A program made the position numbers and the translations under genes. A stretch of DNA of 64,000 nucleotides from Pseudodesulfovibrio sp. zrk46 (GTDB lineage Bacteria; Desulfobacterota; Desulfovibrionia; Desulfovibrionales; Desulfovibrionaceae): the NCBI RefSeq assembly GCF_012516435.1, contig NZ_CP051216.1, forward strand, positions 2,312,001 through 2,376,000. Reading direction: 5' to 3'. Every line of letters begins with the position of its first letter. Position 1 is the stretch's first letter. Below the pieces are notes generated by a model. The model had not been told where the DNA came from, made no database searches, and saw only the letters and a program-made list of their open reading frames with translations. Below, one piece after another: positions 11,179 to 24,732 of the stretch.

Positions 11179-11330
11179 TTAGCCCTCCGTAAATACGAAT
11201 ATTGATTTGATTTGCGTCGAGTAGCACTAATCTAAAAAAAGTGTCAACAATGAGGTACGAAATTATTAGTCGTATTCGTGAAGAGGTGCGCCTTGCTTGA
11301 ATCAAGCTGGGGCTTGGAAGAAAGATAAAA

Positions 11331-11364
11331 AACAAGGGTTCAGCTCTGGAGCTGAACCCTTGTT
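11331..11364 (-). terminator. Terminator of the exported-protein gene
   Basis: AACAAGGGTTCAGCTC (11331-11346) and GAGCTGAACCCTTGTT (11349-11364) form a perfect 16-bp stem. On the minus strand it is followed by TTTTATCTTTC. The core AAGGGTT-AGCT/AGCT-AACCCTT recurs in other terminators of the window (24873, 34028, 46941). Confidence 0.8.
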
Positions 11365-11392
11365 TGATTGCTAGTACTAAGCGTTTGTCGAT

Positions 11393-12184
11393 CTAGTTGA
11401 ACAGGTCGCTGATGGTGCCCCGGATCGCGTCTTTGAGCTCATCTTTGGTGGCCTGTTTGGCGTCCTGGCCGATCTCGGCGGCGTCATCATCCAGTCCCAT
11501 GTCGCTGCCTTCAGCCTGCTGGGGAGGCTGTTGCATGGTGACCTGCTGGGCGCCGGACGGTAACTCATAGTATGAAGACTTGAGGTTCTTTACCTTGAGA
11601 CTGGAAAGGCGCATGGAATCACCGTAGCGGAGGACCCCGCCGTAACCCATCTTCTGGGCCTCTTCCAGCGAGTCGTCGAAAGCTTTGCTCTGGTTGTTGT
11701 TCATCCGGGTGGCCACGGCAATCCATCCGTTGGTGAGTTTCTTGAGATTGGAATGGCTGCACAGGACGATTTCATCCCGGCTTACGACCTTGCCGTCTTC
11801 AAAGACTACGGCTTTGTATACGGACCCGCTGTATCCGGCTACTTTTTCCGTCTTGCCGGTCTTTTCGTAACGGACGTCGTATTCGGGGGCGCTGTCTCCG
11901 CCGCCGAACATGCTTGTGAAGCCGCCGCCCATGCTATTCATCTGGGCCATGTCCATGACATGCCATTTGCCTTCGTCATCGCGGTTGACCGAGTACACCT
12001 TGTCGTCTTTCAGCAGCATGTAGCTGGTGGGCGAAGTGTCCATTCGAACGTGATTGGAATCGCGGGTGCATAGGGTCATCATATTGCCGTCAGAATATTT
12101 GTAAGTGGCAATGATGTCGGACCCTGCCTGCGCACAGACAGGCATGACCAGTGTCATGCAAATGAAAAACAGAAATTTACGCAT
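11393..12184 (-). CDS. Exported protein of unknown function (possibly DUF4412-like)
   Basis: A 263-residue protein starting MRKFLFFICMTLVMPVCAQA, a clear signal peptide cleaved after AQA. The start at 12184 is fixed by AGGAGGAG just upstream. The mature part alternates short strands (ATYKYSDGNMMTLCTRD, MLLKDDKVYSVNRD) with a Gly/Met-rich linker (MNSMGGGFTSMFGGGD), then a Gln/Pro stretch and an acidic helical tail. The strand pattern recalls periplasmic DUF4412-type proteins, but I am not sure. It is a single-gene unit with its own terminator. Confidence 0.65.
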   Translation of the reverse strand: MRKFLFFICMTLVMPVCAQAGSDIIATYKYSDGNMMTLCTRDSNHVRMDTSPTSYMLLKDDKVYSVNRDDEGKWHVMDMAQMNSMGGGFTSMFGGGDSAPEYDVRYEKTGKTEKVAGYSGSVYKAVVFEDGKVVSRDEIVLCSHSNLKKLTNGWIAVATRMNNNQSKAFDDSLEEAQKMGYGGVLRYGDSMRLSSLKVKNLKSSYYELPSGAQQVTMQQPPQQAEGSDMGLDDDAAEIGQDAKQATKDELKDAIRGTISDLFN

Positions 12185-12458
12185 ATCTCCTCCTCTTGTA
12201 ATTCCCCAATAGAGTGACCACCCCTCATGGACCACACATTAATGTATGCTTAGTAGCATCGTCACAGATTCTTGTCACATTAAATGTAGGAATCCCTATA
12301 CTGCTCCTCAATAACAGTGTTTTTGTCTTTCCATTCCATGCTATCTCATTACTATGTATGGGGTGGTTCGCATGCTTCGGCAGCGATGGTATGGATTTCA
12401 ACCAAGATTGTTGCGCCTTCCTCGCACTGGCTGTAAATACGCATGAGGAGAATCGGCT

Positions 12459-13859
12459 ATGAGAAAAATGATCGTGATTACGCGCGATGGAAGTCGTTCG
12501 GAAGAGATAGGCGACCTGCTCGACCAGGATGAGCATATCCTGACTGAGACCAGCACCAGTGCATCGGAGATCGATGACGATCGAGAGATAGACACGCTCT
12601 TTGTTGACGTGGATGCCTTGCTCGCGAAGGACAAGTCAATTGCGAAAGCGCTGGAAGGGTTGTGGTCTCACTATCCCTCTGCTGCCATCGTTGTCATGGC
12701 CGACGAAGATAACACCGGGGCCGCGGTCGATGCGGTCAAGGCGGGCGCTTTCGACTATCTTACCCATCCTATTGAGAAGGAAGAGCTTGATCTCGTCGTC
12801 GAGAAGGTGCGCGAGTCCGATGTGCTTCAGTCGGAGCTGGACTATCTGCGCGGTCAATTCTGGAACGAAGATTCTCTTGAGTACGTGGACACTCGCAGCA
12901 AGGCCATGCGGGATGTCTTTTTAAAGATCAGGCAGGTGGCAGGTACTCGCACAACCGTGCTGCTTACCGGCGAGACCGGAACCGGAAAAAGCCTGATCGC
13001 CAAGCTGATCCATGCCCACAGTAACCGCAAGGACATGCCGTTCATCAGTGTCCACTGTGGCGCCATCCCCGATACGCTCGTAGAGAGCGAACTCTTCGGG
13101 CATGAAAAAGGGGCCTTCACCGGGGCTGTGCGCCGTAAGCTGGGCAAATTCGAGCTGGCCCATGGCGGCACCATTTTTCTGGATGAGATCGGCACTGTCA
13201 GTCAGTCGGTGCAGGTAAAACTCCTCAACGTCATTCAGGAGCGGGTAATCCAGCGAGTGGGCGGCGAAAACGACATTCCAGTCGATGTGCGAATCATTGC
13301 CGCTACCAATGAGGATATGAAGCAACTGTGCGAGGAAGGAAAATTCCGGCGCGATCTGTTTTACCGGCTCAACGTCTTTCCTGTGCGAATCCCCTCCCTG
13401 CGAGAACGGTTGGAAGACATCCCCAGACTGTCAGAAGGGTTTATCCGGCAGTTCAATGGTCTACTCAATACGGAAATCAAAGGTCTCCATCCTCAGGTCC
13501 TTGATACCCTGCTGGAATACGAGTGGCCCGGCAACGTCCGTGAACTGGAGAATGTCATCGAGCGCGCCTGCATTCTTGAAACCGAGGAAGTATTGCACGC
13601 CGAGAGTTTTCCCCCTGATCTTATGGACACCCAGGGAGAAGTGGTGACATCTCCGGTTAAGACAGACTTGCCACTCAAAGAAGCGCGCCAGATCACGGTG
13701 GATAAATTCGAGAAGCAATATCTCTCCAGCCTGCTTGAACAATGCAACGGTGTCATCAAAACCACTGCCGAGAAGGCCGGTGTGACCACCCGGCAGTTGA
13801 ATAAATTGATGAATCGTCATGGACTTCAGAGGTCTGATTTCAAAAAGCGGAATCTTTAG
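12459..13859 (+). CDS. Sigma-54-dependent response regulator with atypical receiver
   Basis: A 466-residue NtrC-class activator: receiver (about 1-120), AAA+ domain (about 145-370) and Fis-type helix-turn-helix (about 425-462, KTTAEKAGVTTRQLNKLMNRHG). The AAA+ part is complete, with Walker A GETGTGKS, the sigma-54 contact GAFTGA, Walker B GGTIFLDEIG and arginine finger region FRRDLFYRLN. The receiver is unusual: the N-terminal acidic pair is absent (MIVITRDG), and the conserved Lys is replaced by His103 (DYLTHPIE), though Asp50 remains. It may not be switched by ordinary phosphorylation. Immediately downstream lie two palindromes and a sigma-54 promoter leading into the eleven-gene operon, which is its obvious target. 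Confidence 0.85.
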   Translation: MRKMIVITRDGSRSEEIGDLLDQDEHILTETSTSASEIDDDREIDTLFVDVDALLAKDKSIAKALEGLWSHYPSAAIVVMADEDNTGAAVDAVKAGAFDYLTHPIEKEELDLVVEKVRESDVLQSELDYLRGQFWNEDSLEYVDTRSKAMRDVFLKIRQVAGTRTTVLLTGETGTGKSLIAKLIHAHSNRKDMPFISVHCGAIPDTLVESELFGHEKGAFTGAVRRKLGKFELAHGGTIFLDEIGTVSQSVQVKLLNVIQERVIQRVGGENDIPVDVRIIAATNEDMKQLCEEGKFRRDLFYRLNVFPVRIPSLRERLEDIPRLSEGFIRQFNGLLNTEIKGLHPQVLDTLLEYEWPGNVRELENVIERACILETEEVLHAESFPPDLMDTQGEVVTSPVKTDLPLKEARQITVDKFEKQYLSSLLEQCNGVIKTTAEKAGVTTRQLNKLMNRHGLQRSDFKKRNL

Positions 13860-13879
13860 TTCTCTTTGATGGCATAGTG

Positions 13880-14022
13880 AGAACTATAAGTTCTTATTGC
13901 GACTTAACTATTTAAATTTATATTGTATTATTGTGATTATACCATGTCCCCGTAATTCGAATTTGCAGGGTGTGGGTGCGGTTTAGTTCTTCGCTTGTAG
14001 TCATTTCGGAACTTTAAGTTCT
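13880..14022 (+). promoter_or_regulatory. Two upstream activator sites (AGAACT-N3-AGTTCT palindromes)
   Basis: AGAACTATAAGTTCT at 13880-13894 is a perfect palindrome with a 3-base spacer. GGAACTTTAAGTTCT at 14008-14022 keeps GAACT/AGTTC. They lie about 200 and 70 bases upstream of a sigma-54 promoter, the normal placing for enhancer sites, and directly behind the gene for an NtrC-class activator. The whole 13860-14127 interval is A+T-rich and non-coding. Confidence 0.65.
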
Positions 14023-14076
14023 TACTTCGTAAATCGAATTTTTTAAAAACACAGCAATATCAACCACCTGCGCTTC

Positions 14077-14092
14077 TGGCACGTCCTATGCT
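14077..14092 (+). promoter_or_regulatory. Sigma-54 promoter of the RimK/GNAT/Pot operon
   Basis: TGGCACG-TCCT-ATGCT matches the sigma-54 consensus TGGCACG-N4-TTGCW at all but one base, with the GG and GC elements at exactly the required spacing. Expected transcription start is near 14103. An 8-bp stem TCTCGATT/AATCGAGA (14100-14107/14114-14121) then lies at the very 5' end of the message, just before the first start codon at 14128. Confidence 0.75.
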
Positions 14093-14127
14093 AAACGCCT
14101 CTCGATTTTTATTAATCGAGAAGTGAC

Positions 14128-14400
14128 ATGAAGCAAACCACCGAACTCAATCAAAGCTACAGAGAAACCATTCGCGGAATGGTTGTCCCTGCCAATTGGA
14201 ATGACCGGTTTCAAGTAACCGGTGTTCTTGTTGCGTGCCATGACGAGAGAGAGGTCAAGGTGGAGAATCTGGAGAGCTTCCCGAATTTGCAGGCACTCGC
14301 TCAGCAAGAGGCTGTGTTTACAGGCCTCGTTCGTAAGCAGGACGGAATGGAGTTCATCTTTTTGGAGGACTTCACACTGGTCAGCAGGGAGAGCGAGTAA
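14128..14400 (+). CDS. Small protein of unknown function, first of three related proteins
   Basis: A 90-residue cytosolic protein. RGMVVPANWNDRFQVTGVLVACHDEREVKVEN followed by a variable helix and GLVRKQDGMEFIFLEDFTL suggests a small beta-barrel with a helix, OB-like. The same layout (GQLIPADWN, then a Glu-rich strand, then IRVKNYTLED-like end) is seen in the protein at 15503-15778, and a shorter version in the exported protein at 14400-14927, so the three look like paralogues. Start ATG at 14128 lies about 25 bases after the expected transcription start. The stop overlaps the next start. Function unknown. Confidence 0.6.
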   Translation: MKQTTELNQSYRETIRGMVVPANWNDRFQVTGVLVACHDEREVKVENLESFPNLQALAQQEAVFTGLVRKQDGMEFIFLEDFTLVSRESE

Positions 14401-14927
14401 TGAATAAAATGACTGCCACTGCTTCTGTTTTTTGGGTGGTGGTGTTTTTGATGACGTTTGCCTTGCATGCTCTCGCCGAGGAGGCTCAAGACGCTCCTGT
14501 GTACATCAGGGGGTTGGTGGTCAGTTCAGGCAATGAACTGCTTATCAATGATGGTGCGCAGGATTTTATCCTCCTCGGTGTGGAGCCCTTCGATTACGAA
14601 GGGAAGATTTGCGAAGCATTCGGCGTGATTGGTTCTTTGGATGAGATGCCGACCATTAAAGTAAGAACCATCACGATTATCGCCGATGAATATCCCGACG
14701 ATGACCTCGTTGGAATGAATGGGAGGATCGGCTCCTCCCAGTTCGACTCTGCGCTTGTTGACCATGCGAATGATTGCCTCTTCGGCTCTGTTGGCATCAC
14801 CATGCTTCACCTGAGCAGATTAAGCCTCCCTATATGGGAAGGGAGCGGCATGCGGAAGAGAGGAAGGTGCGACAGACAAACTACTGCATGCCGCTTCCAA
14901 CATTCATCAAAGCTCAGGACTATATGA
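14400..14927 (+). CDS. Exported small protein related to its neighbours
   Basis: A 175-residue protein with a signal peptide (MNKMTATASVFWVVVFLMTFALHALA, cleavage near ALA-EE). The mature N-terminal part (YIRGLVVSSGNELLINDGAQDFILLGVEP ... IKVRTITIIADE) has the strand pattern of the small proteins at 14128 and 15503, so it may be their periplasmic counterpart. The last 60 residues look less protein-like (many Arg, Ser), and a frameshift or a late readthrough of a shorter gene cannot be excluded. However, its TGA overlaps the ATG of the GNAT gene (ATGA), which argues that the full frame is used. Confidence 0.55.
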   Translation: MNKMTATASVFWVVVFLMTFALHALAEEAQDAPVYIRGLVVSSGNELLINDGAQDFILLGVEPFDYEGKICEAFGVIGSLDEMPTIKVRTITIIADEYPDDDLVGMNGRIGSSQFDSALVDHANDCLFGSVGITMLHLSRLSLPIWEGSGMRKRGRCDRQTTACRFQHSSKLRTI

Positions 14928-15490
14928 TGGAAACAACGACAAATGAGATTTTTGAGCAGCACGAGATTCAGGAAGTGCGAATTGTCGCCGGTATAACGGC
15001 TGACGATGTTGAGACTTTTTTGAATATGGCTGCTGCGAGTGGTTTGTTCTCTTCGGATGCCATGATGACTGCTGAGGATATGGCATGGGACAGCGCATAT
15101 GGGGATGGTAACGAGTCTCACTCGTTTCTCAAGGCGGTGATCAACGACTCCGGCAGTGAGAAGGCGATCGCATTCATCTGCTTTGGTCCCATCCCTTATT
15201 GGCCAGGTAACTATGAGATGTATGCCATTGTCGTGGAGCCGCAATTTCAGCGACTCGGAATCGGCACTGCCTTGGTCTCGGAAATGTTCCGGCAAACCAC
15301 TGTGGAAACGGGCAACCGCGTCTACCTCGAAACAGGGACGGAGAAGAAATTCGAAAATGCCCGCCGTTTTTATGAGGCTAACGATTTCATTCAGCAAAAT
15401 CGGTACATCAAGCAATTCACACCTAACGATGGAGGCGTTGTCTACTGCTACGACATCACCTCCGACACGATTGGTGAGCAACCCCAATAA
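14924..15490 (+). CDS. GNAT-family N-acetyltransferase
   Basis: A 188-residue GNAT protein starting at ATG 14924 (AGGA upstream, coupled to the previous stop). The acetyl-CoA-binding core is clear: MYAIVVEPQFQRLGIGTALVSEM contains motif A with R/QxxGxG/A (QRLGIG), followed by the strand and helix EKKFENARRFYEANDF. It should transfer an acetyl group to an amine. Given the RimK-like ligase and polyamine transporter in the same operon, candidate acceptors are glutamyl peptides, polyamines or amino acids. Substrate cannot be read from the sequence. Confidence 0.8.
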   Translation: MMETTTNEIFEQHEIQEVRIVAGITADDVETFLNMAAASGLFSSDAMMTAEDMAWDSAYGDGNESHSFLKAVINDSGSEKAIAFICFGPIPYWPGNYEMYAIVVEPQFQRLGIGTALVSEMFRQTTVETGNRVYLETGTEKKFENARRFYEANDFIQQNRYIKQFTPNDGGVVYCYDITSDTIGEQPQ

Positions 15491-15502
15491 CCCGGAGGAA
15501 CC

Positions 15503-15778
15503 ATGGCTTTGGACATCTACGAAGACTCTCTCTATGGACAGCTGATTCCCGCGGACTGGAATAAGGAGACTGTTTCCAGCCTAATCCTTCTTGTGGACGG
15601 GGAAGAAGAATTCACCATTGAAAACAACGAAGAAGGTGAAGAGCTTTTGGATTACATCGATAGATGGATCACGGCAGAAGGCATCATCACCGAAACCGAC
15701 GAAGAATTGCGTATCAAGGTGCGCAACTACACACTTGAAGACGAGATGGACTACGAGGGTGACGATGCCTGGCAATAG
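15503..15778 (+). CDS. Small acidic protein, paralogue of the 14128 product
   Basis: A 91-residue, strongly acidic protein preceded by a good ribosome binding site (GGAGG). GQLIPADWNKETVSSLILLVDGEEEFTIEN parallels RGMVVPANWNDRFQVTGVLVACHDEREVKVEN of the protein at 14128, and the C-terminal halves also align (ITETDEELRIKVRNYTLED against VRKQDGMEFIFLEDFTL). Probably a small OB-like or beta-barrel domain. Having two copies in one operon flanking the GNAT gene suggests a structural or regulatory partner of the enzymes. Function unknown. Confidence 0.65.
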   Translation: MALDIYEDSLYGQLIPADWNKETVSSLILLVDGEEEFTIENNEEGEELLDYIDRWITAEGIITETDEELRIKVRNYTLEDEMDYEGDDAWQ

Positions 15779-15886
15779 CCTTGGTCGTAAACAGACTTTT
15801 TATCAGGGTTGTCCCAACAGGACGTCCTTTATTCCTTGCGTCGATTCCATGCGCAATTCTTTGGACACGACGTAAGGAGCCGACCA

Positions 15887-16366
15887 TTGAGTACTCAAAA
15901 GCAACCGAAAATGATCATCGGGTGGCGAGAGTGGGTCTCGCTGCCCGATTTTTGCGTTCCCGGCATCAAGGTCAAAGTCGACTCCGGGGCTGCGACCTCG
16001 GCGATACATGCCTTCGATATCGTTCCCTTCGAGCGTGATGGAGCACAATTCGTACGGTTCAACATTCATCCGCTTCAGGGGAGACACGATATCTCCATTC
16101 CCTGCGAAGCACCGCTTGTTGATCGGCGAAAAGTGACCAATTCCGGCGGGCAAAGTCAAAAAAGATTTGTGGTGAGAACCACTTTGGAGATTGTAGGGCG
16201 GCGATGGTCTATCGACCTGACCCTGACCAATCGGGACCAGATGAAGTTCCGCATGCTGCTTGGTCGCTCTGGCATGAGTCAAAGGCTCATCGTCGATCCG
16301 CAACTCTCCTATCAGGCAGGAAAATACAATTCAGCAACCTTTTACCCGACACTCTTCAACGAATGA
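15887..16366 (+). CDS. Retropepsin-like 'ATP-dependent zinc protease' family protein (RimK-associated)
   Basis: A 159-residue protein of the family annotated as putative ATP-dependent zinc protease, whose fold is that of pepsin-like aspartyl proteases. [15 protein letters not shown] carries the DSGA active-site signature (family D[ST]GA). The start is a TTG at 15887, chosen because AAGGAG lies eight bases before it; an ATG at 15809 is in frame but has no such site. The family is repeatedly found beside RimK-like ligases, as here: its stop overlaps the ATG of the ligase gene. A role in processing or limiting the ligase product is inferred. Confidence 0.75.
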
Positions 16367-17268
16367 AAATAGCTATCCTCTCTCGAAAACGGTCCCTGTA
16401 CTCCACTAACGCTCTGGTGGAGGCGGGCAAGGCAGCCGGGCATGACATGCGTGTCATCGATCCGCTTCGCTGCTACATGAACATCGCATCTCACAACCCC
16501 ATGATTCACTACAAGGGCGAAGACCTGTCGGATATTGATGCCGTCATTCCTCGTATTGGCGCTTCCGTCACCTTCTATGGAACAGCGGTTGTCCGCCAAT
16601 TCGAAATGATGGGCGTTTACAGCCTGAATGAATCCGTAGCCATTACCCGCTCCCGGGACAAGCTGCGCAGCATGCAGCTTCTTTCCCGCAGAGGCATCGG
16701 CCTGCCCGTCACGGGCTACGCCCACTCCACCAAGTTCACTGACGACCTCATCGAGATGGTCGGCGGTGCGCCGCTGGTGGTCAAGTTGCTGGAAGGCACT
16801 CAGGGAATCGGCGTGGTGCTCGCAGAAAACAATCAGGCCGCCAAAAGCGTCATCGAGGCGTTTCAGGGCGTCAAAGCCAACATCCTTGTGCAGGAATATA
16901 TTCGGGATGCCAAAGGGCGCGACATCCGTTGCCTCGTCATCGGCGGCAAGGTCATCGCCTCCATGCAGCGACAGGCAGCACCGGGAGAATTCCGCTCCAA
17001 TCTGCACCGTGGCGGCACTGCTTCCACTGTCCGCATCACCCCGGAGGAGCGCTCCACAGCCGTCCGCGCCGCCAAGATCATGGGATTGAACGTCTGCGGT
17101 GTCGACCTGCTCAGAACCAATCACGGTCCGGTGGTGATGGAGGTCAACTCCTCTCCCGGCCTTGAAGGTATTGAAAAAGTCACTGGCAAAAGCCTTTCCG
17201 GGAAAATCATCGACTTCATTGAAAAGAATGCCAAGCCGGGCAAGACCCAAACGCGCGGCAAAGGATAG
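16363..17268 (+). CDS. rimK: RimK-type ATP-grasp alpha-L-glutamate ligase
   Basis: A 301-residue ATP-grasp ligase, matching RimK length. Visible parts: N-terminal domain [22 protein letters not shown], the RimK signature [18 protein letters not shown]-binding loop [32 protein letters not shown], and the Mg ligands in [15 protein letters not shown]. RimK adds glutamates to ribosomal protein S6 in E. coli; homologues add amino acids to other carboxylates. The ATGA overlap with the protease gene shows co-translation. With a GNAT and transporter genes in one operon, a small acetylated glutamyl product is as plausible as S6 modification. An open frame further upstream is not needed. Confidence 0.85.
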
Positions 17269-17271
17269 ACC

Positions 17272-18351
17272 ATGGGTATCATCCGCCTCCTGCTCGCCAT
17301 CGCCGTTCTCAATTCGCACTTCACTTTTGTAGAAGTGCCCATTGTCGGCGGGCATGAGGCGGTACTTGCCTTCTTCGCCATTTCCGGATTCTACATGGCT
17401 CTGATTCTGGACACGAACTATGCATCAGCTAAAGGCTTTTACATGGGACGTTTCCTTTCGTTGTACCCCATGTATGTTTTGGCCCTGATCGTCAGCATCT
17501 CCTTGCTGACCACCTGGAACATTCACCCCATGATCGGAATGGACCAAATCCGTACCCTCTTGTCAGACCCCTTGTCTTTCTTCCTCATGCTGTGGACATC
17601 CGCCTGCGTGTTCGGACAAGAGTTGCTGTTCAGCTTAGCCGCTTCGCCTGACGGCGGGCTGCATTTCGTTACTGCCAGCAAGCACGGTATTTGGGCTCAC
17701 GCACCGCTGATTCAGGCATGGTCCCTTTCCTTGGAGATTCTGTTTTACGCGTTGGCTCCACTTCTTGTCCGGTTGAGCTCTCGCTCCTTGATTGGGCTCG
17801 TGGTCGCCAGCATCGCCGCCAAGCTGCTGATCATGAACAGCCCCTATGCGGACGTGGTGTTTTTCAAGCGGTTCTTCCCGATAGAGTTCTGGCTGTTCGG
17901 CAGCGGCATCCTTGCCTACAGATTCTATCGCACCCTTGCTCCCGGTCGCGAAGCAATCGACTACTTTGCATTCATCTTTGTGGTTGGATTCATCTTGGTC
18001 GTCGGCGATGTTGATGATGCCCTCAAACCTTTTGCGCTCCCCGTGGCGACTTTACTGGCGCTTCCTTTTGTTTTCAGAGCCTTCCAGGCGCTTCAATTTG
18101 ACAGAAACATGGGGAAGATCAGTTATCCATTTTATCTTCTTCATTTCAGCGTCATAGCCATTTTCGAGGAGTATTGGGAGGAGCCTTCGGGATGGCACAT
18201 CCTCGCGTTGACCCTGGTGGTCGCCACCCTCGTTCACCTCATCTTCAATCCGGGCATTGAACATTTCAAGCAAAGGATGCGCAGGCAAAAGCAGTCGTCT
18301 TTCGACGGCGAACTGGTTGTTCAGCCAGACATTTCAATCATCAAGCCATAA
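17272..18351 (+). CDS. Acyltransferase family 3 membrane protein
   Basis: A 359-residue integral membrane protein with about ten hydrophobic segments, of the acyltransferase 3 family (OafA/NodX type). Family features: IIRLLLAIAVLNSHF with the catalytic His in the first membrane helix, FFAISGFYMALIL, and FYMGRFLSLYPMYVLALIV with the conserved Arg. It would move an acetyl or other acyl group from cytoplasmic acyl-CoA to an extracytoplasmic acceptor. It starts four bases after the ligase stop. Acceptor unknown. Confidence 0.8.
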   Translation: MGIIRLLLAIAVLNSHFTFVEVPIVGGHEAVLAFFAISGFYMALILDTNYASAKGFYMGRFLSLYPMYVLALIVSISLLTTWNIHPMIGMDQIRTLLSDPLSFFLMLWTSACVFGQELLFSLAASPDGGLHFVTASKHGIWAHAPLIQAWSLSLEILFYALAPLLVRLSSRSLIGLVVASIAAKLLIMNSPYADVVFFKRFFPIEFWLFGSGILAYRFYRTLAPGREAIDYFAFIFVVGFILVVGDVDDALKPFALPVATLLALPFVFRAFQALQFDRNMGKISYPFYLLHFSVIAIFEEYWEEPSGWHILALTLVVATLVHLIFNPGIEHFKQRMRRQKQSSFDGELVVQPDISIIKP

Positions 18352-18358
18352 TTAAACA

Positions 18359-19474
18359 ATGAAAAATGTCATAACACTATCCAAAGTCAGCAAATCTTTC
18401 GATGGGGATGTCGCCATTGAAGATGTTTCCCTGTCCATAGCCGACGGTGAGTTTCTCACCCTGCTTGGACCGTCCGGTTGCGGCAAGACAACCGTTTTGC
18501 GGCTCATAGGTGGCTTTGAAGAATGCGACAATGGTGAGATCCATATTGACGACACTTCAGTGGCAGGCCAGCCTCCCGAAGCTCGGCCGGTGAACACCGT
18601 ATTTCAGAGTTACGCCTTATTTCCGCATATGAACGTGTATGACAACGTGGCCTTTGGCCTGCGAATTGCGGGAATATCCGAAGCGGAGATCGCCAGCGAA
18701 GTCCCCAAGGCGCTCCAGTTGGTGCGTCTTGAAAAGATGATTCGTCGCATGCCTTCGGAATTGTCTGGCGGTCAGCAGCAGCGTGTAGCCATTGCCCGTG
18801 CCATCGTGAACAAGCCACGCGTTCTCCTGCTGGATGAACCGCTTTCCGCGCTGGACTATCGCCTCCGCAAGGAGATGCAGAAGGAACTCAAGGAGCTGCA
18901 ACGCACCCTTGGTATCACCTTTGTCCTCGTCACCCACGATCAGGAAGAGGCATTCACCATGTCCGACAGGGTCGTGGTGATGAATGAGGGACGCATTGAA
19001 CAGATCGGTAGCCCCAAGGATGTCTACGAAGATCCTGCCAATCTTTACGTTGCCCGTTTCGTAGGTGAGATCAATGTGCTCAGCGGGATAATCACCGGAA
19101 TTGGCGAGACCAACTACAGCGCCGAGGTCGAGGGCGTGTCGGTCCTGGTCAAATCCAAACGGGATTTTGCAGTGGGGGACAAAATCCATGTCCTGCTGCG
19201 CCCGGAGGACTTTCGTGTCGAGGTGATGCGGGAGGTCAAAGACGACCCTGAGCTGGCAGAGAAGTTTTCCAAGGCAATGCTCAAAGGGACAGTGGATCGC
19301 ACCTTCTACAAAGGTGCCACTTATGACGTGGACATCACCTTGGATGATGGCAAGAAAATTCTTGTTTCGGAGTTCTTCGACGAGGATGCCGAGAACCTCT
19401 ATTTTCATGCTGGAGACAAAGTTGCCGTAGGCTGGTTTGAAGGCTGGGAGGTGGTGCTGCCCTATGAAGGATAG
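18359..19474 (+). CDS. potA: Spermidine/putrescine ABC transporter ATPase
   Basis: A 371-residue ATPase of the PotA type: Walker A GPSGCGKTT, Q-loop VFQSYALFPHMNVYDN, signature LSGGQQQRVAIA, Walker B VLLLDEPLSALD, then a C-terminal TOBE regulatory domain from about residue 240. Order and family of the three following genes fix it as the motor of a PotABCD importer. It starts eight bases after the acyltransferase gene without an obvious Shine-Dalgarno site and so may depend on coupling. Confidence 0.85.
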   Translation: MKNVITLSKVSKSFDGDVAIEDVSLSIADGEFLTLLGPSGCGKTTVLRLIGGFEECDNGEIHIDDTSVAGQPPEARPVNTVFQSYALFPHMNVYDNVAFGLRIAGISEAEIASEVPKALQLVRLEKMIRRMPSELSGGQQQRVAIARAIVNKPRVLLLDEPLSALDYRLRKEMQKELKELQRTLGITFVLVTHDQEEAFTMSDRVVVMNEGRIEQIGSPKDVYEDPANLYVARFVGEINVLSGIITGIGETNYSAEVEGVSVLVKSKRDFAVGDKIHVLLRPEDFRVEVMREVKDDPELAEKFSKAMLKGTVDRTFYKGATYDVDITLDDGKKILVSEFFDEDAENLYFHAGDKVAVGWFEGWEVVLPYEG

Positions 19475-20318
19475 CCGCTTGTTCAAACGGTTCATCATCG
19501 GGGGTGTTCTCGGGTGGATGACATTATTCGGCGCCATCCCCACGTTTCTGCTTGTGGGGGTCAGCTTCCTGAGTCGTCACCCTGACAACCTCGTTGAGCC
19601 AACGTTTTCACTGACCAGCTATATGCGGTTGTTGGAGCCGGAACTGGGAGCCATGGTTCTCCATTCCCTGTTCCTTGCAGCAACAGCCACATTGCTTTGC
19701 CTGCTCATCGGCTATCCGTTTGCCTACATCTCTGCTCGTGCGATCAAGCGCTACTCCAGACTCATGCTTCTGCTGGTCATGATCCCGTTCTGGACCAACA
19801 GCCTCATCCGCACGTACGCCATGGTCGCGGTCCTCAAGGCTGACGGAATCCTGAGCAAGACGTTGCTGTTTCTTGGTATCATCGATGCGCCCTTGAAGAT
19901 CATGTACACTCAGACGGCGATCTTCATCGGACTCATCTATACCTTGCTGCCGTTCATGATTCTGCCGCTGTATGCAGCCATCGAGAAAATCGACGGCAAG
20001 CTTGTTGAGGCGTCCCGCGACCTCGGCGCGAGCAAGTGGACGACGTTCCGCAAGATCACCATACCGCTGTCCATGCCGGGCATCGTGTCCGGTTGCATGC
20101 TGGTGTTCCTGCCTGCGCTGGGCATGTTCTACATCCCGGACATTCTTGGCGGTGCGCGTACCATGCTGCTGGGCAACTACATCCGGGACCAGTTCCTCGC
20201 GACCCGCGATCTTCCCATGGGAGCAGCCGCATCCATTGCCATGACGTTGATCATGGGCTGCATGCTGGTCCTGTACTACCGGAGCGTCCGCCGATCCGGC
20301 AGGAGGGCAAGGCTGTGA
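19464..20318 (+). CDS. potB: Spermidine/putrescine ABC transporter permease PotB
   Basis: A 284-residue permease with six hydrophobic segments and the EAA loop VEASRDLGASKWTTFRKITIPLSMPG, which contacts PotA. The start ATG at 19464 lies inside the end of potA (11-base overlap). The stop overlaps the potC start. It belongs to the PotB/PotH group by position and by motifs (PFWTNSLIRTYAM). Confidence 0.85.
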   Translation: MKDSRLFKRFIIGGVLGWMTLFGAIPTFLLVGVSFLSRHPDNLVEPTFSLTSYMRLLEPELGAMVLHSLFLAATATLLCLLIGYPFAYISARAIKRYSRLMLLLVMIPFWTNSLIRTYAMVAVLKADGILSKTLLFLGIIDAPLKIMYTQTAIFIGLIYTLLPFMILPLYAAIEKIDGKLVEASRDLGASKWTTFRKITIPLSMPGIVSGCMLVFLPALGMFYIPDILGGARTMLLGNYIRDQFLATRDLPMGAAASIAMTLIMGCMLVLYYRSVRRSGRRARL

Positions 20319-21082
20319 TGAAACTCCTCAAATCAGCATATGTGGGATTGGTCTACCTGTTCCTCTACCTTCCGCTGGTTGTCATGGCGGTCTATTCCTT
20401 CAATGCTTCGAAATACTCGCTGTCATGGAAGGGCTTCACCCTGAAGTGGTATGGCAAACTTTTGAGTAACACGACGTTGCTCGACGCAGCGGTTCGCTCC
20501 ATGACCATCGCGGTGGTGTCGGCCACGGTCGCCTGTCTCATCGGCACTCTCGGTGCCTTCATGCTGCACCAGTACCGATTCAAAGGAAGAAGGGCGGTCT
20601 TTGGCGGTGTGTTCGTCATGATGATGTCTCCTGACATCGTCATCGCCATTTCGCTGCTTGTCCTCTTTCTCGGAGCCGGTTTTACCTTGGGATTCTGGAC
20701 GCTGCTCATGGGGCACGTCACCCTCTGCGTGCCGTTCGTGATCGCGACGGTTTATTCCCGTTTCAGAGGGTTCGACCGATCCGTGGTCGAAGCTGCCCGC
20801 GACCTGGGGGCGAGTGAATACCAAGTATTCCGAAAGGTCGTCATTCCCATGGCGATGCCCGGTCTCATGGCGGGCTGGCTGCTCAGCTTCACCCTTTCTC
20901 TGGACGACGTCATCATCAGCTTTTTCACGACGGGGCCGACTTATGAGGTGTTGCCCCTTCGTATCTATTCAATGGTCCGTCTTGGAATCAAACCCGATGT
21001 CAACGCGCTCAGCGTGGTGATGATCGGAATCACAGTGGTCGCTGTCATCCTGTCCCGGCGACTGCTCAAGGAGAAACGATAA
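20318..21082 (+). CDS. potC: Spermidine/putrescine ABC transporter permease PotC
   Basis: A 254-residue permease, second membrane subunit of the importer. It starts MKLLKSAYVGLVYLFLYLPL (GGAGGG upstream) and has YSFNASKYSLSWKGFTLKWY, typical of PotC/PotI, plus the EAA loop VEAARDLGASEYQVFRKVVIPMAMPG. Start and stop each overlap the neighbouring genes by one base. Confidence 0.85.
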   Translation: MKLLKSAYVGLVYLFLYLPLVVMAVYSFNASKYSLSWKGFTLKWYGKLLSNTTLLDAAVRSMTIAVVSATVACLIGTLGAFMLHQYRFKGRRAVFGGVFVMMMSPDIVIAISLLVLFLGAGFTLGFWTLLMGHVTLCVPFVIATVYSRFRGFDRSVVEAARDLGASEYQVFRKVVIPMAMPGLMAGWLLSFTLSLDDVIISFFTTGPTYEVLPLRIYSMVRLGIKPDVNALSVVMIGITVVAVILSRRLLKEKR

Positions 21083-22110
21083 TGAAAAAAACTCTGTTGG
21101 CCTTTGTTCTTGTGCTGCTTTGCGCTCTGCCTTCCTTTGCCGGAAGCGGCGAACTGTATCTCTACATCTGGTCCGAATACATTCCGGATGAAGTCGTTGA
21201 GAACTTCACCAGGGAAACCGGCATCAAGGTCCACCTGTCCACTTACGACAGCAACGAGGCCATGTACGCCAAGATCAAGCTGGCTGGCGAGGGCTACGAC
21301 CTCATCGTTCCTTCTTCCGATTATGTCAGTCTCATGCGGCAGCAGGGGCTTCTTCTTCCGTTGGAGAAAGGCAAGCTGCCTAACTTCGCCAACCTTGCTC
21401 CCCAGTTCGTGAACCAGTCCTTTGATCCGGACAATGCCTTTTCCATTCCCTATATGTGGGGTTCCACTTCCATCACGGTCAACACCGGCATGCTCGGCAA
21501 CAGTGCTGTTACTTCCATTGCTGACCTGTGGAAACCGGAGATGAAAGGCAGACTGCTGTTGCCCAATGAACCGCGCGAGGCTTTCGCTCTTGCCCTGAAG
21601 AAGCTGGGATACTCTGTCAACGAAACCGACCCTGCACACCTTGAAGAGGCATATCAGGAACTCAAGAAGTTGATCCCGATGGTGCGTGTGTTTGATTCTG
21701 ATTCCCCCAAGCAGGCATTGCTTGCAGGTGAGGTTCTGATCGGGGTGGTCTGGAACGGTGAAGCGTTCATCGTCAACGAGGAGAACCCCGACTTCCAGTA
21801 CATTTATCCGCCCGAAGGGTTCAACCTGTGGGTAGACTCCTTGTGCATTCCCAAGGGGGCGAAAAATGTTGATGAAGCTCACGCATTCCTGAATTACCTG
21901 ATGCGTCCCGATGTCGCCGCGGCCATCAGTACCGAGATGGGCTACTCGACTCCCAACGCCAAGGCTATGGAGTTGATTCCGGAAAATGTTCGGAATAATC
22001 CCATCGTCTATCCGTCCGAAGAAGATATGGCCCGTGGGGAGTTTCAGGATTATCTCGGTGAAGCCATGAAGCTGTATGATGACTATTGGGTGAAGCTGAA
22101 GACTCAGTAA
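21082..22110 (+). CDS. potD: Spermidine/putrescine-binding periplasmic protein
   Basis: A 342-residue binding protein with signal peptide MKKTLLAFVLVLLCALPSFA-GS. It follows the PotD/PotF pattern: LYLYIWSEYIPDEVVENFTRETGIKV near the mature N terminus, YDLIVPSSDYV, and a late WVDSLCIPKGAKN region. It would capture polyamines (or a related cationic or amino-acid-like ligand) in the periplasm for PotABC. Last gene of the sigma-54 operon, followed by a terminator. Confidence 0.85.
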   Translation: MKKTLLAFVLVLLCALPSFAGSGELYLYIWSEYIPDEVVENFTRETGIKVHLSTYDSNEAMYAKIKLAGEGYDLIVPSSDYVSLMRQQGLLLPLEKGKLPNFANLAPQFVNQSFDPDNAFSIPYMWGSTSITVNTGMLGNSAVTSIADLWKPEMKGRLLLPNEPREAFALALKKLGYSVNETDPAHLEEAYQELKKLIPMVRVFDSDSPKQALLAGEVLIGVVWNGEAFIVNEENPDFQYIYPPEGFNLWVDSLCIPKGAKNVDEAHAFLNYLMRPDVAAAISTEMGYSTPNAKAMELIPENVRNNPIVYPSEEDMARGEFQDYLGEAMKLYDDYWVKLKTQ

Positions 22111-22117
22111 CGTAATC

Positions 22118-22148
22118 AAGCCACGGTGCATGTCCTGCGCCGTGGCTT
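22118..22148 (+). terminator. Terminator of the RimK/GNAT/Pot operon
   Basis: AAGCCACGG (22118-22126) pairs with CCGTGGCTT (22140-22148), followed by GTTTTC. It lies eight bases after the potD stop and closes the plus-strand run that began at 14128. Confidence 0.75.
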
Positions 22149-22179
22149 GTTTTCTGTGGAGTACAAGCTCCAAATTTCT

Positions 22180-24732
22180 TTAATCTTCCGATGCCCTTTC
22201 TACTCGGTTTCGACCGTTCGCCTTAGCTCTATAGAGAGCTGTATCTGCGGCTTTAATGAGTTCTTCCAGCGAACTGAGAGATTCAGAGAATTCCGCTACG
22301 CCAAGGCTGACAGTAAAATCAATCTCTTGGCTGTCGGAGATCCTCGCTTTCCCTTGTTCGATAGCTGTCCGAATCTTTTCGGCAACAAGAAGACCTGAAT
22401 CAAGGTTGGTCTCTGGCAAGGCCACCGCAAACTCCTCACCGCCGATACGTCCAAGAATATCAATCTCTCTCAAATTGTTCGTTGAGATATTGGCAATCTC
22501 TTTCAATACGATATCGCCCACGTCGTGACCATATGTGTCGTTGACGGATTTGAACTTGTCGACATCGAACATGACAAACGAGAAGGGGGCCTGATAACGA
22601 CGACACCGTTCCACTTCATGCTCGGCCATTTCCATGAAATGACGTCGATTGTTGAGACCTGTCAAAGAATCTGTCGTGGCTAACAAGCGCAATTGTTCTT
22701 GTGTATTGCGAGATTCCGTTACGTCCCAATTGACGCCAGTCATGTAGGTGGTTTTGTCCTCAATTTCCTGTCGAGTCAGTGCTGCGGCCTTGATGTACCG
22801 CACCTCGTTATTGGGGAGGACGATTCTGAACTCACATTCCCAAGTGGTCGCATTCTCCACCGCACTGATGAGTGATCCTTCCGCGTGTTCAAGGTCGTCT
22901 GGATGAACCCGGTTTTTCCAAGATTCGAATAATCCACCGAATTCCCCACGCTGTATGTCGTATAGTGAGTACATCTGTTCATCCCAGACAACGGTGTTGT
23001 CTGTCACATTCCATTCCCAGACACCAATTTGGCCAGCCTGGGAGGCGAGGCTCAGACGATCCGAGTAGGCTCTCAGTTCCTGCTCGGCGAGTTTTCTTTC
23101 TGTGATGTCCCTCAGTGTCCCAACGGCATAGAATTCACCGCTCAGTGCAAATGAGGCGACTGACCGTTCAACAGGGATGAGGCTGCCATCTTTTCTTATG
23201 GCCATGAATTCGGAAACAGAGCCAACAACCGGCCCTTGTCCTGTGTGAGCAAAATGTTTCAGGCCTTTCCACGCCATGTCTCTTTCTTCGTCGGGAGCAA
23301 TCAGGAGGTGGAGCTTTTGGCCCAGGGCTTCTTCCTGAGACCATCCAAACATTTTCTCCGCAGCCAGGCTCCAGAATAAAACCTTGTCTTCAGAGTTGAT
23401 CATGACCAAAGCGTCGTGGGATGCTTCTGACATGGCACGAAGTTGTTCTTCGTTCGCTTTGGAGGCTTGTTCCGCCAGAACTCGATCGGTAATGTCCAAC
23501 ACTGTCCCGCGGGATATGACCGGGTTGCCTTTGCGGTCACACTGGATGCTGCCACGTTCCTGGACGTGTCGAACAGTTCCGCCTCGCCTGACAATGCGGT
23601 GGTCAACGGCGTATCCACCACAGCTTTCCTGACTCTTTTGAAACTCTCCCATTACCATTTCCTGGTCGTCAGGATGCACCACTGAGACAAAGAGGTCCAA
23701 AGAGGGCGTCACTTCATCAGGGGCAAGACCAAAGATACGAAACACCTCTTCTGACCACCACAGTTCGTTGTTTTGGTGGTTGAGTTCCCAGCTTCCGAGG
23801 TGAGCCATGGATTGGGAGATGCTCAGGTTCTGTTGTGCTTGAGCGATCTGCGCATTTCGCGTTTCTGCTCTGTAAAGGTAGAATCCTGCTACCAAGAAGA
23901 GCAGAGCAAGAATACTATGGATTACAAATGAGTAAGGATGCGATGAAGCCCATCCTTCAACGGGTTTTCCTGCTATGACCCAGCTGCCTGCCGGGAAAAC
24001 TATGCGCATCGTGACCGCTTTTTCATGGGGAGCGAATAATTCTTTTCTCCCGTTGAATACGGCGCCATGTTCTCCCTTGCCGTTTACTCCACGAATTGCA
24101 AGTTCGAGGTTTGTGTTGGAAAATCCGGTCCTTTCAAAAAGACGATCAACATCGATAACGGATGATACGATGCCCCAGAGTTTCTTGCTGTTGTTTTCGT
24201 AGATAAACACCGGGGCTCTTCCAATGAGGCCCATGCCTCCCTGGACGAGTTTCAACGGGCCGGCCACAACCATTTCTCCGGTTATGGCAACCTGTTTTAC
24301 TTGATCCCACTGGCTCTCAAGTTCTCGGTAGTTGACGCCCAGAATCGCTTCATTGCCCTCGAGTGGGTAAACGTAGGTCATGATGAAGTTCGGGGCGGCG
24401 CCGATGTTTTTCAATAGGTCAGCTTTTTCCAATATCCTTTGGGCATAGTCGGCAAAACTTTTTTCATTCAGATCGGGGGTGACGGAGATGAAGCTGCTTG
24501 CTCCCTGAACAACGAGTAAGTTTGAAGTGATCTCTTTTTCCAGCTCTGCCCGAATCGTCGAGAGTCGGAGCGAGACGTCCAAAATCTGATCATTCCTGTA
24601 CTGCCGTTGGAGTTGATACTGGATGAATACATCGACAGCCAACGCCAACAGGAGAAGTAGCAGTAGATGGATAATCGTCTTTTTGGGCATAGGGTATCTC
24701 TGGATAGTGTTAATGATTGCTCTATCAGGCAT
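22180..24732 (-). CDS. Membrane diguanylate cyclase with CHASE and PAS domains
   Basis: An 850-residue sensor. A first membrane segment (about residues 20-38) precedes a periplasmic CHASE domain (about 55-260, ending with a second membrane helix near 272-290). Then come three PAS/PAC modules (about 310-430, 440-560, 565-690) and a GGEEF domain (about 695-845). The GGEEF core is intact (RIGGEEFAVALPETN; also NDTYGHDVGDIVLKE), so it should make c-di-GMP. No EAL domain is present. The start is uncertain: ATG at 24690 (MPKKTIIH) puts the membrane helix at the N terminus, while 24732 is the longest. Neither has a clear ribosome binding site. Single gene, convergent with the pot operon. Confidence 0.8.
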   Translation of the reverse strand: MPDRAIINTIQRYPMPKKTIIHLLLLLLLALAVDVFIQYQLQRQYRNDQILDVSLRLSTIRAELEKEITSNLLVVQGASSFISVTPDLNEKSFADYAQRILEKADLLKNIGAAPNFIMTYVYPLEGNEAILGVNYRELESQWDQVKQVAITGEMVVAGPLKLVQGGMGLIGRAPVFIYENNSKKLWGIVSSVIDVDRLFERTGFSNTNLELAIRGVNGKGEHGAVFNGRKELFAPHEKAVTMRIVFPAGSWVIAGKPVEGWASSHPYSFVIHSILALLFLVAGFYLYRAETRNAQIAQAQQNLSISQSMAHLGSWELNHQNNELWWSEEVFRIFGLAPDEVTPSLDLFVSVVHPDDQEMVMGEFQKSQESCGGYAVDHRIVRRGGTVRHVQERGSIQCDRKGNPVISRGTVLDITDRVLAEQASKANEEQLRAMSEASHDALVMINSEDKVLFWSLAAEKMFGWSQEEALGQKLHLLIAPDEERDMAWKGLKHFAHTGQGPVVGSVSEFMAIRKDGSLIPVERSVASFALSGEFYAVGTLRDITERKLAEQELRAYSDRLSLASQAGQIGVWEWNVTDNTVVWDEQMYSLYDIQRGEFGGLFESWKNRVHPDDLEHAEGSLISAVENATTWECEFRIVLPNNEVRYIKAAALTRQEIEDKTTYMTGVNWDVTESRNTQEQLRLLATTDSLTGLNNRRHFMEMAEHEVERCRRYQAPFSFVMFDVDKFKSVNDTYGHDVGDIVLKEIANISTNNLREIDILGRIGGEEFAVALPETNLDSGLLVAEKIRTAIEQGKARISDSQEIDFTVSLGVAEFSESLSSLEELIKAADTALYRAKANGRNRVERASED

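Follow-up and report, generated by a model that had tools for sequence, protein, structure and literature searches.

RimK is generally regarded as an enzyme that modifies the ribosome. In Pseudomonas, RimABK is reported to act on the ribosome (PMC11957791; PMC7343187), and Pseudomonas RimK also makes free poly-alpha-glutamate, a synthesis that RimB stimulates (PMC11957791). Here we analyse a rimB-like and a rimK gene of Pseudodesulfovibrio sp. zrk46, which lie in an array of eleven plus-strand open reading frames (ORFs; 14128–22110) within a 64,000-nucleotide stretch of contig NZ_CP051216.1 (positions 2,312,001 to 2,376,000 of assembly GCF_012516435.1), hereafter the window, in whose numbering coordinates are given. 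The array also encodes a GNAT acetyltransferase, small proteins referred to as the s family (s1, s2, s3), a membrane acyltransferase and a PotABCD-type transporter, and upstream of it stands the gene of a sigma-54 enhancer-binding protein (EBP). Comparison with related genomes makes it very probable that this activator, paired dyads and a -24/-12 element together form its regulatory architecture, and suggests that the switch and a few of the small proteins stay constant while ligating, acetylating and polyamine-uptake genes are swapped around them.

The pairing itself is not new, since it is that of the known Pseudomonas RimB–RimK. As in Pseudomonas RimABK, a retropepsin adjoins an alpha-glutamate ligase, the RimK passes its equivalog model and the protease carries a D[ST]G motif. 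Unlike that system, the window shows no RimA in the Pfam scan, its genome encodes a ribosomal protein S6 without a glutamate tail, its protease falls under the RimB cut-off (NF052261, 137.2 versus 200 bits), and the pair stands behind a sigma-54 activator in the company of GNAT, s-family, Pot and acyltransferase genes. The rimA gene is also missing in some Pseudomonas (PMC12239564). A second combination of retropepsin and ATP-grasp protein, rloABC of Pseudomonas aeruginosa, has been linked to osmotic stress; there, however, RloA is secreted and accompanied by a transglutaminase-like membrane protein (PMC12239564), and the window protease reaches only 68.8, 53.4 and 48.5 bits on three Rlo models, compared with its RimB score.

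Two osmolyte systems also invite comparison. The ablA–ablB genes encode a lysine 2,3-aminomutase and a beta-lysine acetyltransferase, whose osmolyte role in Pelobacter carbinolicus is an inference of the authors (PMC3543383). In relatives of the window locus, too, the gene of a KamA-family aminomutase accompanies that of a GNAT next to an activator of this type; unlike ablA–ablB, these loci add two D-Ala-D-Ala-ligase-like ATP-grasp proteins, their KamA falls under the AblA cut-off (463 versus 525 bits), and Pfam and curated-model scans found no KamA among the proteins of the window operon. An earlier note on this DNA, made from the sequence alone, had drawn an analogy with the NAGGN synthetase systems, which also combine an ATP-grasp ligase with GNAT chemistry; the window RimK nevertheless scores 54.5 bits on TIGR03103 (cut-off 569), and no asparagine-synthetase-like partner is found among the operon genes. 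The neighbourhoods of ATP-grasp amidoligases were reportedly surveyed by Iyer and colleagues in 2009.

On the regulatory side, the window resembles the Desulfovibrionales sigma-54 one-component regulons, in which an EBP adjoins a conserved sigma-54 promoter with its binding motif (Kazakov et al., 2015, PMC4641369). Seven words, namely aminomutase, acetyltransferase, spermidine, polyamine, SET domain, GNAT and ATP-grasp, do not appear in the main text of that paper. Neither the Desulfovibrio hydrothermalis pressure paper nor the D. piezophilus genome paper uses the first four of these terms in its main text, the second paper does not mention RimK either, and PMC3559428 contains none of the terms looked for. 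By title or abstract start, none among the literature matches listed describes this gene set. D. hydrothermalis has been reported to accumulate glutamate under pressure (PMC4162548).

A conserved activator and paired dyads

The stretch between the activator gene and s1 contains two exact GAACTNNNAGTTC dyads (13881, 14009) and one -24/-12 element. This arrangement was compared in 24 loci, the window and 23 relatives, which share what we call the core and were selected by GNAT matches among 199 sampled family genomes; they are related, not independent, and the count leaves out a core-like locus (G093:C4) and a decayed core in genome G192 (L199). Gene calls in the relatives are automatic, and some domain names there were assigned by eye. 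With the dyad pair counted at up to two mismatches, dyads 125–134 bp apart and an element 64–70 bp beyond the second occur in 23 of the 24 loci and in none of 4800 shuffles, the sole failure (L097) being on the -24/-12 pattern.

The activator itself contains GAFTGA in its translation and has an AAA+ sigma-54 interaction domain. Its putative Fis-type DNA-binding domain scores 20.4 bits on HTH_8, under the cut-off of 22, with a C-terminus that aligns across 23 orthologues. Receiver domains carry an acid pair, a T/S and a K at conserved phosphorylation positions. Most orthologues of the activator show R-D in place of the acid pair, M at the T/S position and H at the K position, and L092 and L093 have lost most of the receiver-like domain. 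With a receiver-like domain that is without several phosphorylation residues, the activator would sense stress directly or via a partner.

In a tree of 70 EBP rows, the window activator shares one clade (100/100) with 40 of the 43 linked-locus rows, which represent 38 distinct genes, and none of 26 own-genome paralogues falls inside it. The tree draws on 14 of the 23 relatives with the core and leaves out matches below 150 bits or 300 aa, and two genes enter it as two rows each; the linked-locus rows outside the clade are L190, L220_1 and L088_1, of which L220_1 and L088_1 each represent a second EBP at the locus. The activator clade and the shared promoter arrangement support the earlier note's proposal of one sigma-54 unit with its own activator. 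By comparative sequence analysis, the activator lies directly upstream, the putative dyads stand about 126 bp apart with the predicted element at fixed distances, and s proteins accompany the activator.

A spread of this regulon across the window's own genome was considered and rejected. The exact pattern GAACTNTNAGTTC occurs six times in that genome, two of them at this promoter, and with one mismatch it is found 31 times forward and 26 in reverse, compared with 43 and 48 for a backward-pattern control; since these counts lie below the control, the pattern alone points to no wider regulon there. At the second rimB–rimK locus of the genome (see below), no dyads were found in the 250 bp read before rimB.

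Distribution across family and phylum

An s3 profile built from the same 24 core loci finds relatives in 49 of the 199 family genomes (E at most 1e-5), some of which supplied profile rows. At E at most 1e-4 it also matches 19 of 395 genomes sampled from the phylum, one of them the window's own. For the phylum, 20 loci covering all 18 other genomes were read. An s-family gene lies downstream of a same-strand EBP in 11 of the 20 loci (11 of the 18 genomes), within about 0.5 kb in nine; L214 and L205 have longer distances from EBP to s gene, 1.2–1.3 kb and 2.6 kb respectively, and in L222 the two genes are divergent. After the EBP, a dyad 64–70 bp before a sigma-54-like element is present in 15 of 22 further family and phylum loci, versus two of 4400 shuffles. 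In our best reading, which as a whole we hold as plausible, the window belongs to a sigma-54 stress-type regulon that occurs across the phylum.

Some copies stand apart from this pattern. A lone extra s3 with no activator match nearby was seen in L160 (10001–10917), L200 and L203, followed in L160 by a small membrane protein that by eye resembles a manganese efflux protein. In L199 (9593–10561) the core looks decayed, the activator and GNAT matching in short stretches and s3 in full.

Constant core and exchangeable cargo

The eleven ORFs, each with its chosen start a single frame with a single terminal stop, follow one another at gaps of -1, -4, 12, 108, -4, 3, 7, -11, -1 and -1 nt, so that the near-contiguous plus-strand array described in the earlier note is borne out. 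The 108-nt interval between s3 and rimB is the sole real gap, because the remaining gaps run from -11 to 12 nt. The array ends in a terminator-like stem after potD, for which the scan is weak taken alone, since it found 12 sites versus 8.4 expected in shuffles.

Relatives of the GNAT (E at most 1e-12) occur in 34 of the 199 family genomes and rimK-type genes (E at most 1e-60) in 25. Among the core loci, the activator and s3 are found in 24 of 24, s1 in 18 and s2 in eight. The genes around them vary: rimB–rimK is present in nine, three or four pot genes in 10, the acyltransferase in 10, and a SET-domain gene in 11, including a degenerate one in L087, with PF00856 confirmed on one representative. 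In four loci (L064, L065, L066, L068) the SET gene sits between s3 and rimB, at the site of the window's 108-nt gap. All eleven window genes recur in identical order in two relatives (L062, L063), which confirms conservation of the order beyond the window; the notion of the eleven genes, PotABCD and acyltransferase included, as one fixed pathway nevertheless gives way to a cargo that varies around activator, GNAT and s3.

The earlier note had also proposed that its grouping would fall if pot and ligase genes were rarely adjacent. The two are together in six of the 24 core loci, which is six of the nine with rimB–rimK, and in none of 18 rimK loci outside the core is a Pot operon close by, although L074 and L075 have a distant PotA-like ATPase. 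These 18 and the nine core copies are part of 29 rimK matches, of which one more lies beside a core (the second copy of G129) and one is a contig-end fragment.

A mosaic of this kind, with many combinations of the four cargo types, is what would be expected if the activator and the small proteins were a stress switch to which unrelated useful genes had hitched singly, sharing a promoter and no pathway. Terminator-like stems directly after s3 in L094 and L095 point the same way, as do PAS-LuxR-like or multi-PAS hybrid kinase-like genes (by eye) at the cargo position after s3 in L092, L093, L095 and L097, and chaperonin-like genes in L205. The cargo is, however, non-random: a ligase with a GNAT recurs in two unrelated versions, and L062 and L063 retain the window's whole order. 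We regard a shared promoter without a shared pathway as somewhat unlikely, if the best placed of the alternatives.

Expression of core and cargo may be separable. A terminator-like hairpin lies within the start of the rimB coding sequence of the window and of L062–L068, and was not seen in 14 testable non-core rimB copies. Random recodings that keep the amino acids, made with window-gene codon usage for all copies, were as stable in at most 0.6% of trials for the eight close operon copies and in 1.5% for L096, versus 3–98% for those 14 non-core copies in which the motif could be read; another four non-core copies are without it. Among the eight related copies, codons of the hairpin reach a synonymous identity of 0.835, those outside it 0.46; the hairpin codons have the highest synonymous conservation of 148 windows along rimB, tied with the one a codon further on. 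We infer that the hairpin is a candidate attenuator able to separate core from cargo expression.

An aminomutase–ligase cassette in relatives

In two relatives (L201, L202) the gene order is EBP–s1–s2–KamA–Ddl–Ddl–GNAT–s3, compared with EBP–s1–s2–GNAT–s3–rimB–rimK in the window. The genes inserted between s2 and GNAT encode a KamA-family aminomutase, which scores 312 bits on TIGR00238 (cut-off 199), and two D-Ala-D-Ala-ligase-like ATP-grasp proteins. The KamA–Ddl–Ddl–GNAT set is also found near an EBP or s gene in L184, L185, L186, L188, L215 and L222; KamA and ligases with no GNAT hit occur in L205 and L209, ligases only in L219, and KamA with the core in L092 and L093. KamA is thus present in six of 20 further family loci and four of the 20 phylum loci, many of these loci being short contigs, and L210 and L213 have a weak (24–26%) ligase-like match only. 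The structure matched best by the core GNAT profile, 2r7h (3.3e-21), is also the best solved relative of the L201 GNAT (1.4e-28). Of the seven kamA upstream regions read, that of L215 shows the full arrangement of dyads plus element.

L201 and L202, with an aminomutase and two ligases between s2 and GNAT, lend support to a product of the kind put forward in the earlier note, an acetylated amino acid or a glutamyl compound, with the product itself still a proposal. In L205 (4311–10074), GroES- and GroEL-like genes (by eye) lie between the activator and three s genes, followed by KamA and several ATP-grasp genes.

RimB, RimK and the tail of S6

If RimK here modified the ribosome, its classical target S6 would be the first place to look. 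The S6 of the window's genome ends in -KFMTVKLAA. In the 17 Pseudodesulfovibrio genomes examined, all S6 end in AA and 15 in VKLAA, the latter including nine of nine that bear rimK. Across the 30 genomes read in all, no S6 has a C-terminal glutamate; 18 of these genomes carry rimK, out of the 25 sampled family genomes that do. These tails set back S6 glutamylation as the default reading, and the glutamyl-product idea gains support because S6 has no acidic tail here. RpsF proteins without a terminal glutamate do exist, as the Pseudomonas authors point out (PMC11957791).

Modification of proteins more broadly is a further explanation for the operon, in which RimK would glutamylate, RimB trim, GNAT acetylate and, in relatives, the SET protein methylate translation proteins, with polyamines imported by PotABCD stabilising ribosomes. 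The RimK passes the S6-ligase model, the nearest family of the protease is RimB (PF05618 being matched as well), the GNAT is weakly RimI-like (31.7 bits, cut-off 86.4), a SET-domain gene occurs in 11 core loci, chaperonin-like genes adjoin the s genes in L205, and the ribosomal role of Pseudomonas RimABK described above offers a precedent. Set against this are the S6 tails, the KamA and two ligases beside the same kind of activator, which point to small molecules, and the absence of an EAL (RimA-type) domain among 10 operon-region proteins scanned with Pfam. We consider protein modification unlikely, marginally more so than the hitching of unrelated genes.

The D[ST]G motif reads DSG in the window and DTG in eight orthologues, with rimK adjacent. 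The same genome has a second rimB–rimK pair (L003 6197–10911; C1, about 506–511 kb), whose rimK is 82% identical. On its flanks are genes for an AspA/AstE-type deacylase and for two channels of the MscS type, neighbours that offer a hint of osmotic physiology. The order rimB–rimK–aspA recurs in L067, L070, L071, L073, L074 and L096.

Small s-family proteins

In a comparison among 12 proteins, s1, s2 and s3 are mutually similar (E 7e-6 for s1–s3; 1.4e-4 for s2–s3 over 51 aa), and s1-type ORFs are also matched by the s3 profile in several loci. None of the three matches a Pfam family at E 0.01; a PHROGs search with them and a SET protein gave nothing better than E 0.11, and among sequence relatives of s3 in PDB the best (E 0.49) is unrelated. 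The predicted s3 model has the order b1-b2-b3-a-b4-b5 (pLDDT 77, pTM 0.62), and its best Foldseek matches are chains of lysyl-tRNA synthetase, CST, RPA, mitochondrial SSB and PriB (best E 7.6e-3, TM 0.52), which we take to be OB folds. A C-terminal D-x-W is invariant in the 24 s3 sequences.

A proposed solute pathway

The reading that we favour, and hold as plausible rather than probable, is a stress regulon whose product would be a solute, either an N-acetylated amino acid or an oligo-glutamyl compound, and in which RimB and RimK replace the aminomutase–ligase cassette. On sensing stress, directly or via a partner, the activator would bind both dyads and fire one long transcript. The enzymatic role of the regulon would be amino-acid ligation and N-acetylation, carried out in relatives by KamA, two ATP-grasp ligases and GNAT; in the window, where no gene lies between s2 and GNAT, the ligation would fall to RimB–RimK behind s3. 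RimK could join glutamates by alpha bonds to a small acceptor or make short poly-glutamate, while RimB would limit chain length and stimulate RimK; GNAT might then acetylate the amino end to give an anionic protective solute. PotABCD would import polyamine as counter-charge or co-protectant, and the acyltransferase would modify the envelope. The product, the order of steps, the direction of cassette exchange and the inducing stress are proposals only.

The chemistry has a parallel: N-acetylaspartylglutamate chemistry involves a RimK-family ligase, a GNAT and an aspartoacylase, and the proposed osmolyte would be its bacterial counterpart. In its boldest form, the proposal is of an undescribed, phylum-wide sigma-54 stress regulon with a new small OB-like family as constant output and interchangeable ligating cassettes, in which Pseudodesulfovibrio would have turned RimB–RimK from ribosome modifier to maker of an N-acetylated alpha-glutamyl osmolyte, balanced by imported polyamine; in this extended form we think it doubtful.

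Several observations weigh against the solute reading. The core must function without rimB–rimK, since 15 of the 24 core loci do not have the pair, and Pot genes accompany the core without it in L083, L084, L085 and L088. The RimK scores as an S6-type ligase, S6 of 13 genomes outside the genus has glutamates near, not at, the end (e.g. -AEEA) with or without rimK, and the SET-domain gene suits protein modification more than solute synthesis. The OB-like label of s3 is a prediction, as no fold match is better than the value given above. The promoter arrangement is absent after the EBP in seven of the 22 further loci (L184, L188, L210, L213, L214, L218, L221). The case for this regulator controlling KamA is thin, because only one of seven kamA regions has dyad and element: L185 and L188 have dyads with no element at the proper distance, L184 has a single two-mismatch dyad and no element, and L186, L209 and L222 have an element with no dyad at that distance.

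A polyamine pathway, in which spermidine or putrescine imported by PotABCD would be acetylated by GNAT or glutamylated by RimK for detoxification or as an osmolyte, is very unlikely. In its favour, PotC passes a spermidine/putrescine model, the one further PotD homologue detected in this genome shares 30% identity with it, and GNAT very weakly matches the spermidine acetyltransferase PaiA (17.9 bits, cut-off 250). Against it, pot genes are missing from 14 of the 24 core loci, each of which has the GNAT by which it was chosen, rimK and pot also occur separately, and the GNAT's nearest solved relative is not named as a polyamine enzyme. The glutamyl-polyamine product suggested in the earlier note finds no support of its own.

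Features of the locus and flanking genes

Coordinates are collected in Table 1. The names given earlier to the RimK, the RimB-type retropepsin, GNAT, acyltransferase-3 and Pot proteins stand, those of RimB and PotD less firmly, both being under their equivalog cut-offs; potA and potB were identified by Pfam only, and PotC is above the cut-off of its spermidine/putrescine model.

Table 1. Predicted genes and regulatory features of the activator–operon region, in window coordinates.
Feature	Coordinates	Strand	Basis or remark
EBP, sigma-54 activator, 466 aa; degenerate receiver-like N-terminus, AAA+, putative Fis-type C-terminus	12459..13859	+	PF00158 1.6e-69
Upstream activator dyad 1 (putative), GAACTATAAGTTC	13881..13893	.	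kept in register in relatives
Upstream activator dyad 2 (putative), GAACTTTAAGTTC, 128 bp from dyad 1	14009..14021	.	kept in register in relatives
-24/-12 sigma-54 promoter (predicted), TGGCACGTCCTATGCT, 68 bp downstream of dyad 2	14077..14092	+	kept at its distance in relatives
s1, small acidic s-family protein, 90 aa	14128..14400	+	E 7e-6 to s3; no Pfam match
s2, s-family-like, 175 aa; N-terminal hydrophobic, signal-peptide-like stretch (by eye)	14400..14927	+	E 1.4e-4 to s3
GNAT acetyltransferase, 188 aa; start 14924 or 14927	14924..15490	+	PF00583 2.2e-10
s3, small acidic protein, 91 aa; predicted OB-like barrel	15503..15778	+	model pLDDT 77
rimB-like retropepsin, 159 aa; start TTG, AAGGAG upstream	15887..16366	+	PF05618 5e-36; DSG motif
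Terminator-like hairpin, 14-bp stem, then T's, within rimB coding start	15917..15949	+	scan; recoding test; synonymous conservation
rimK, alpha-L-glutamate ligase, 301 aa	16363..17268	+	NF007764 462.6 bits, cut-off 331
Membrane acyltransferase-3, 359 aa	17272..18351	+	PF01757 1.8e-15
potA, ABC ATPase, 371 aa	18359..19474	+	PF00005, TOBE_2
potB, permease, 284 aa	19464..20318	+	PF00528 4.1e-18
potC, permease, 254 aa; start set by overlap with potB stop	20318..21082	+	NF007047 394.1 bits, cut-off 326
potD, substrate-binding protein, 342 aa	21082..22110	+	NF007048 372 bits, cut-off 582
Intrinsic terminator-like 14-bp stem, then TTTT, after potD	22117..22149	+	hairpin scan

Both flanks are on the minus strand. 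A CHASE-PAS-GGDEF protein is encoded at 22180–24732, convergent with potD. At 11393–12235, divergent from the activator gene, lies an ORF of 280 aa that matches no Pfam family and shows, by eye, a stretch resembling a signal peptide. No Rfam family reached its gathering score in 11300–23000.

Implications

Pseudodesulfovibrio is a genus whose S6, in the nine rimK-bearing genomes examined, is without a modifiable residue and which nonetheless has rimB–rimK behind a dedicated sigma-54 promoter, so that the other job of RimK becomes directly testable. The comparison outlines a regulon partly conserved across a bacterial phylum, together with its likely, predicted binding site, and a case in which cargo is exchanged while the regulator and small proteins that match no Pfam family stay in place. 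For marine sulfate reducers, it may point to a possible route to compatible solutes.

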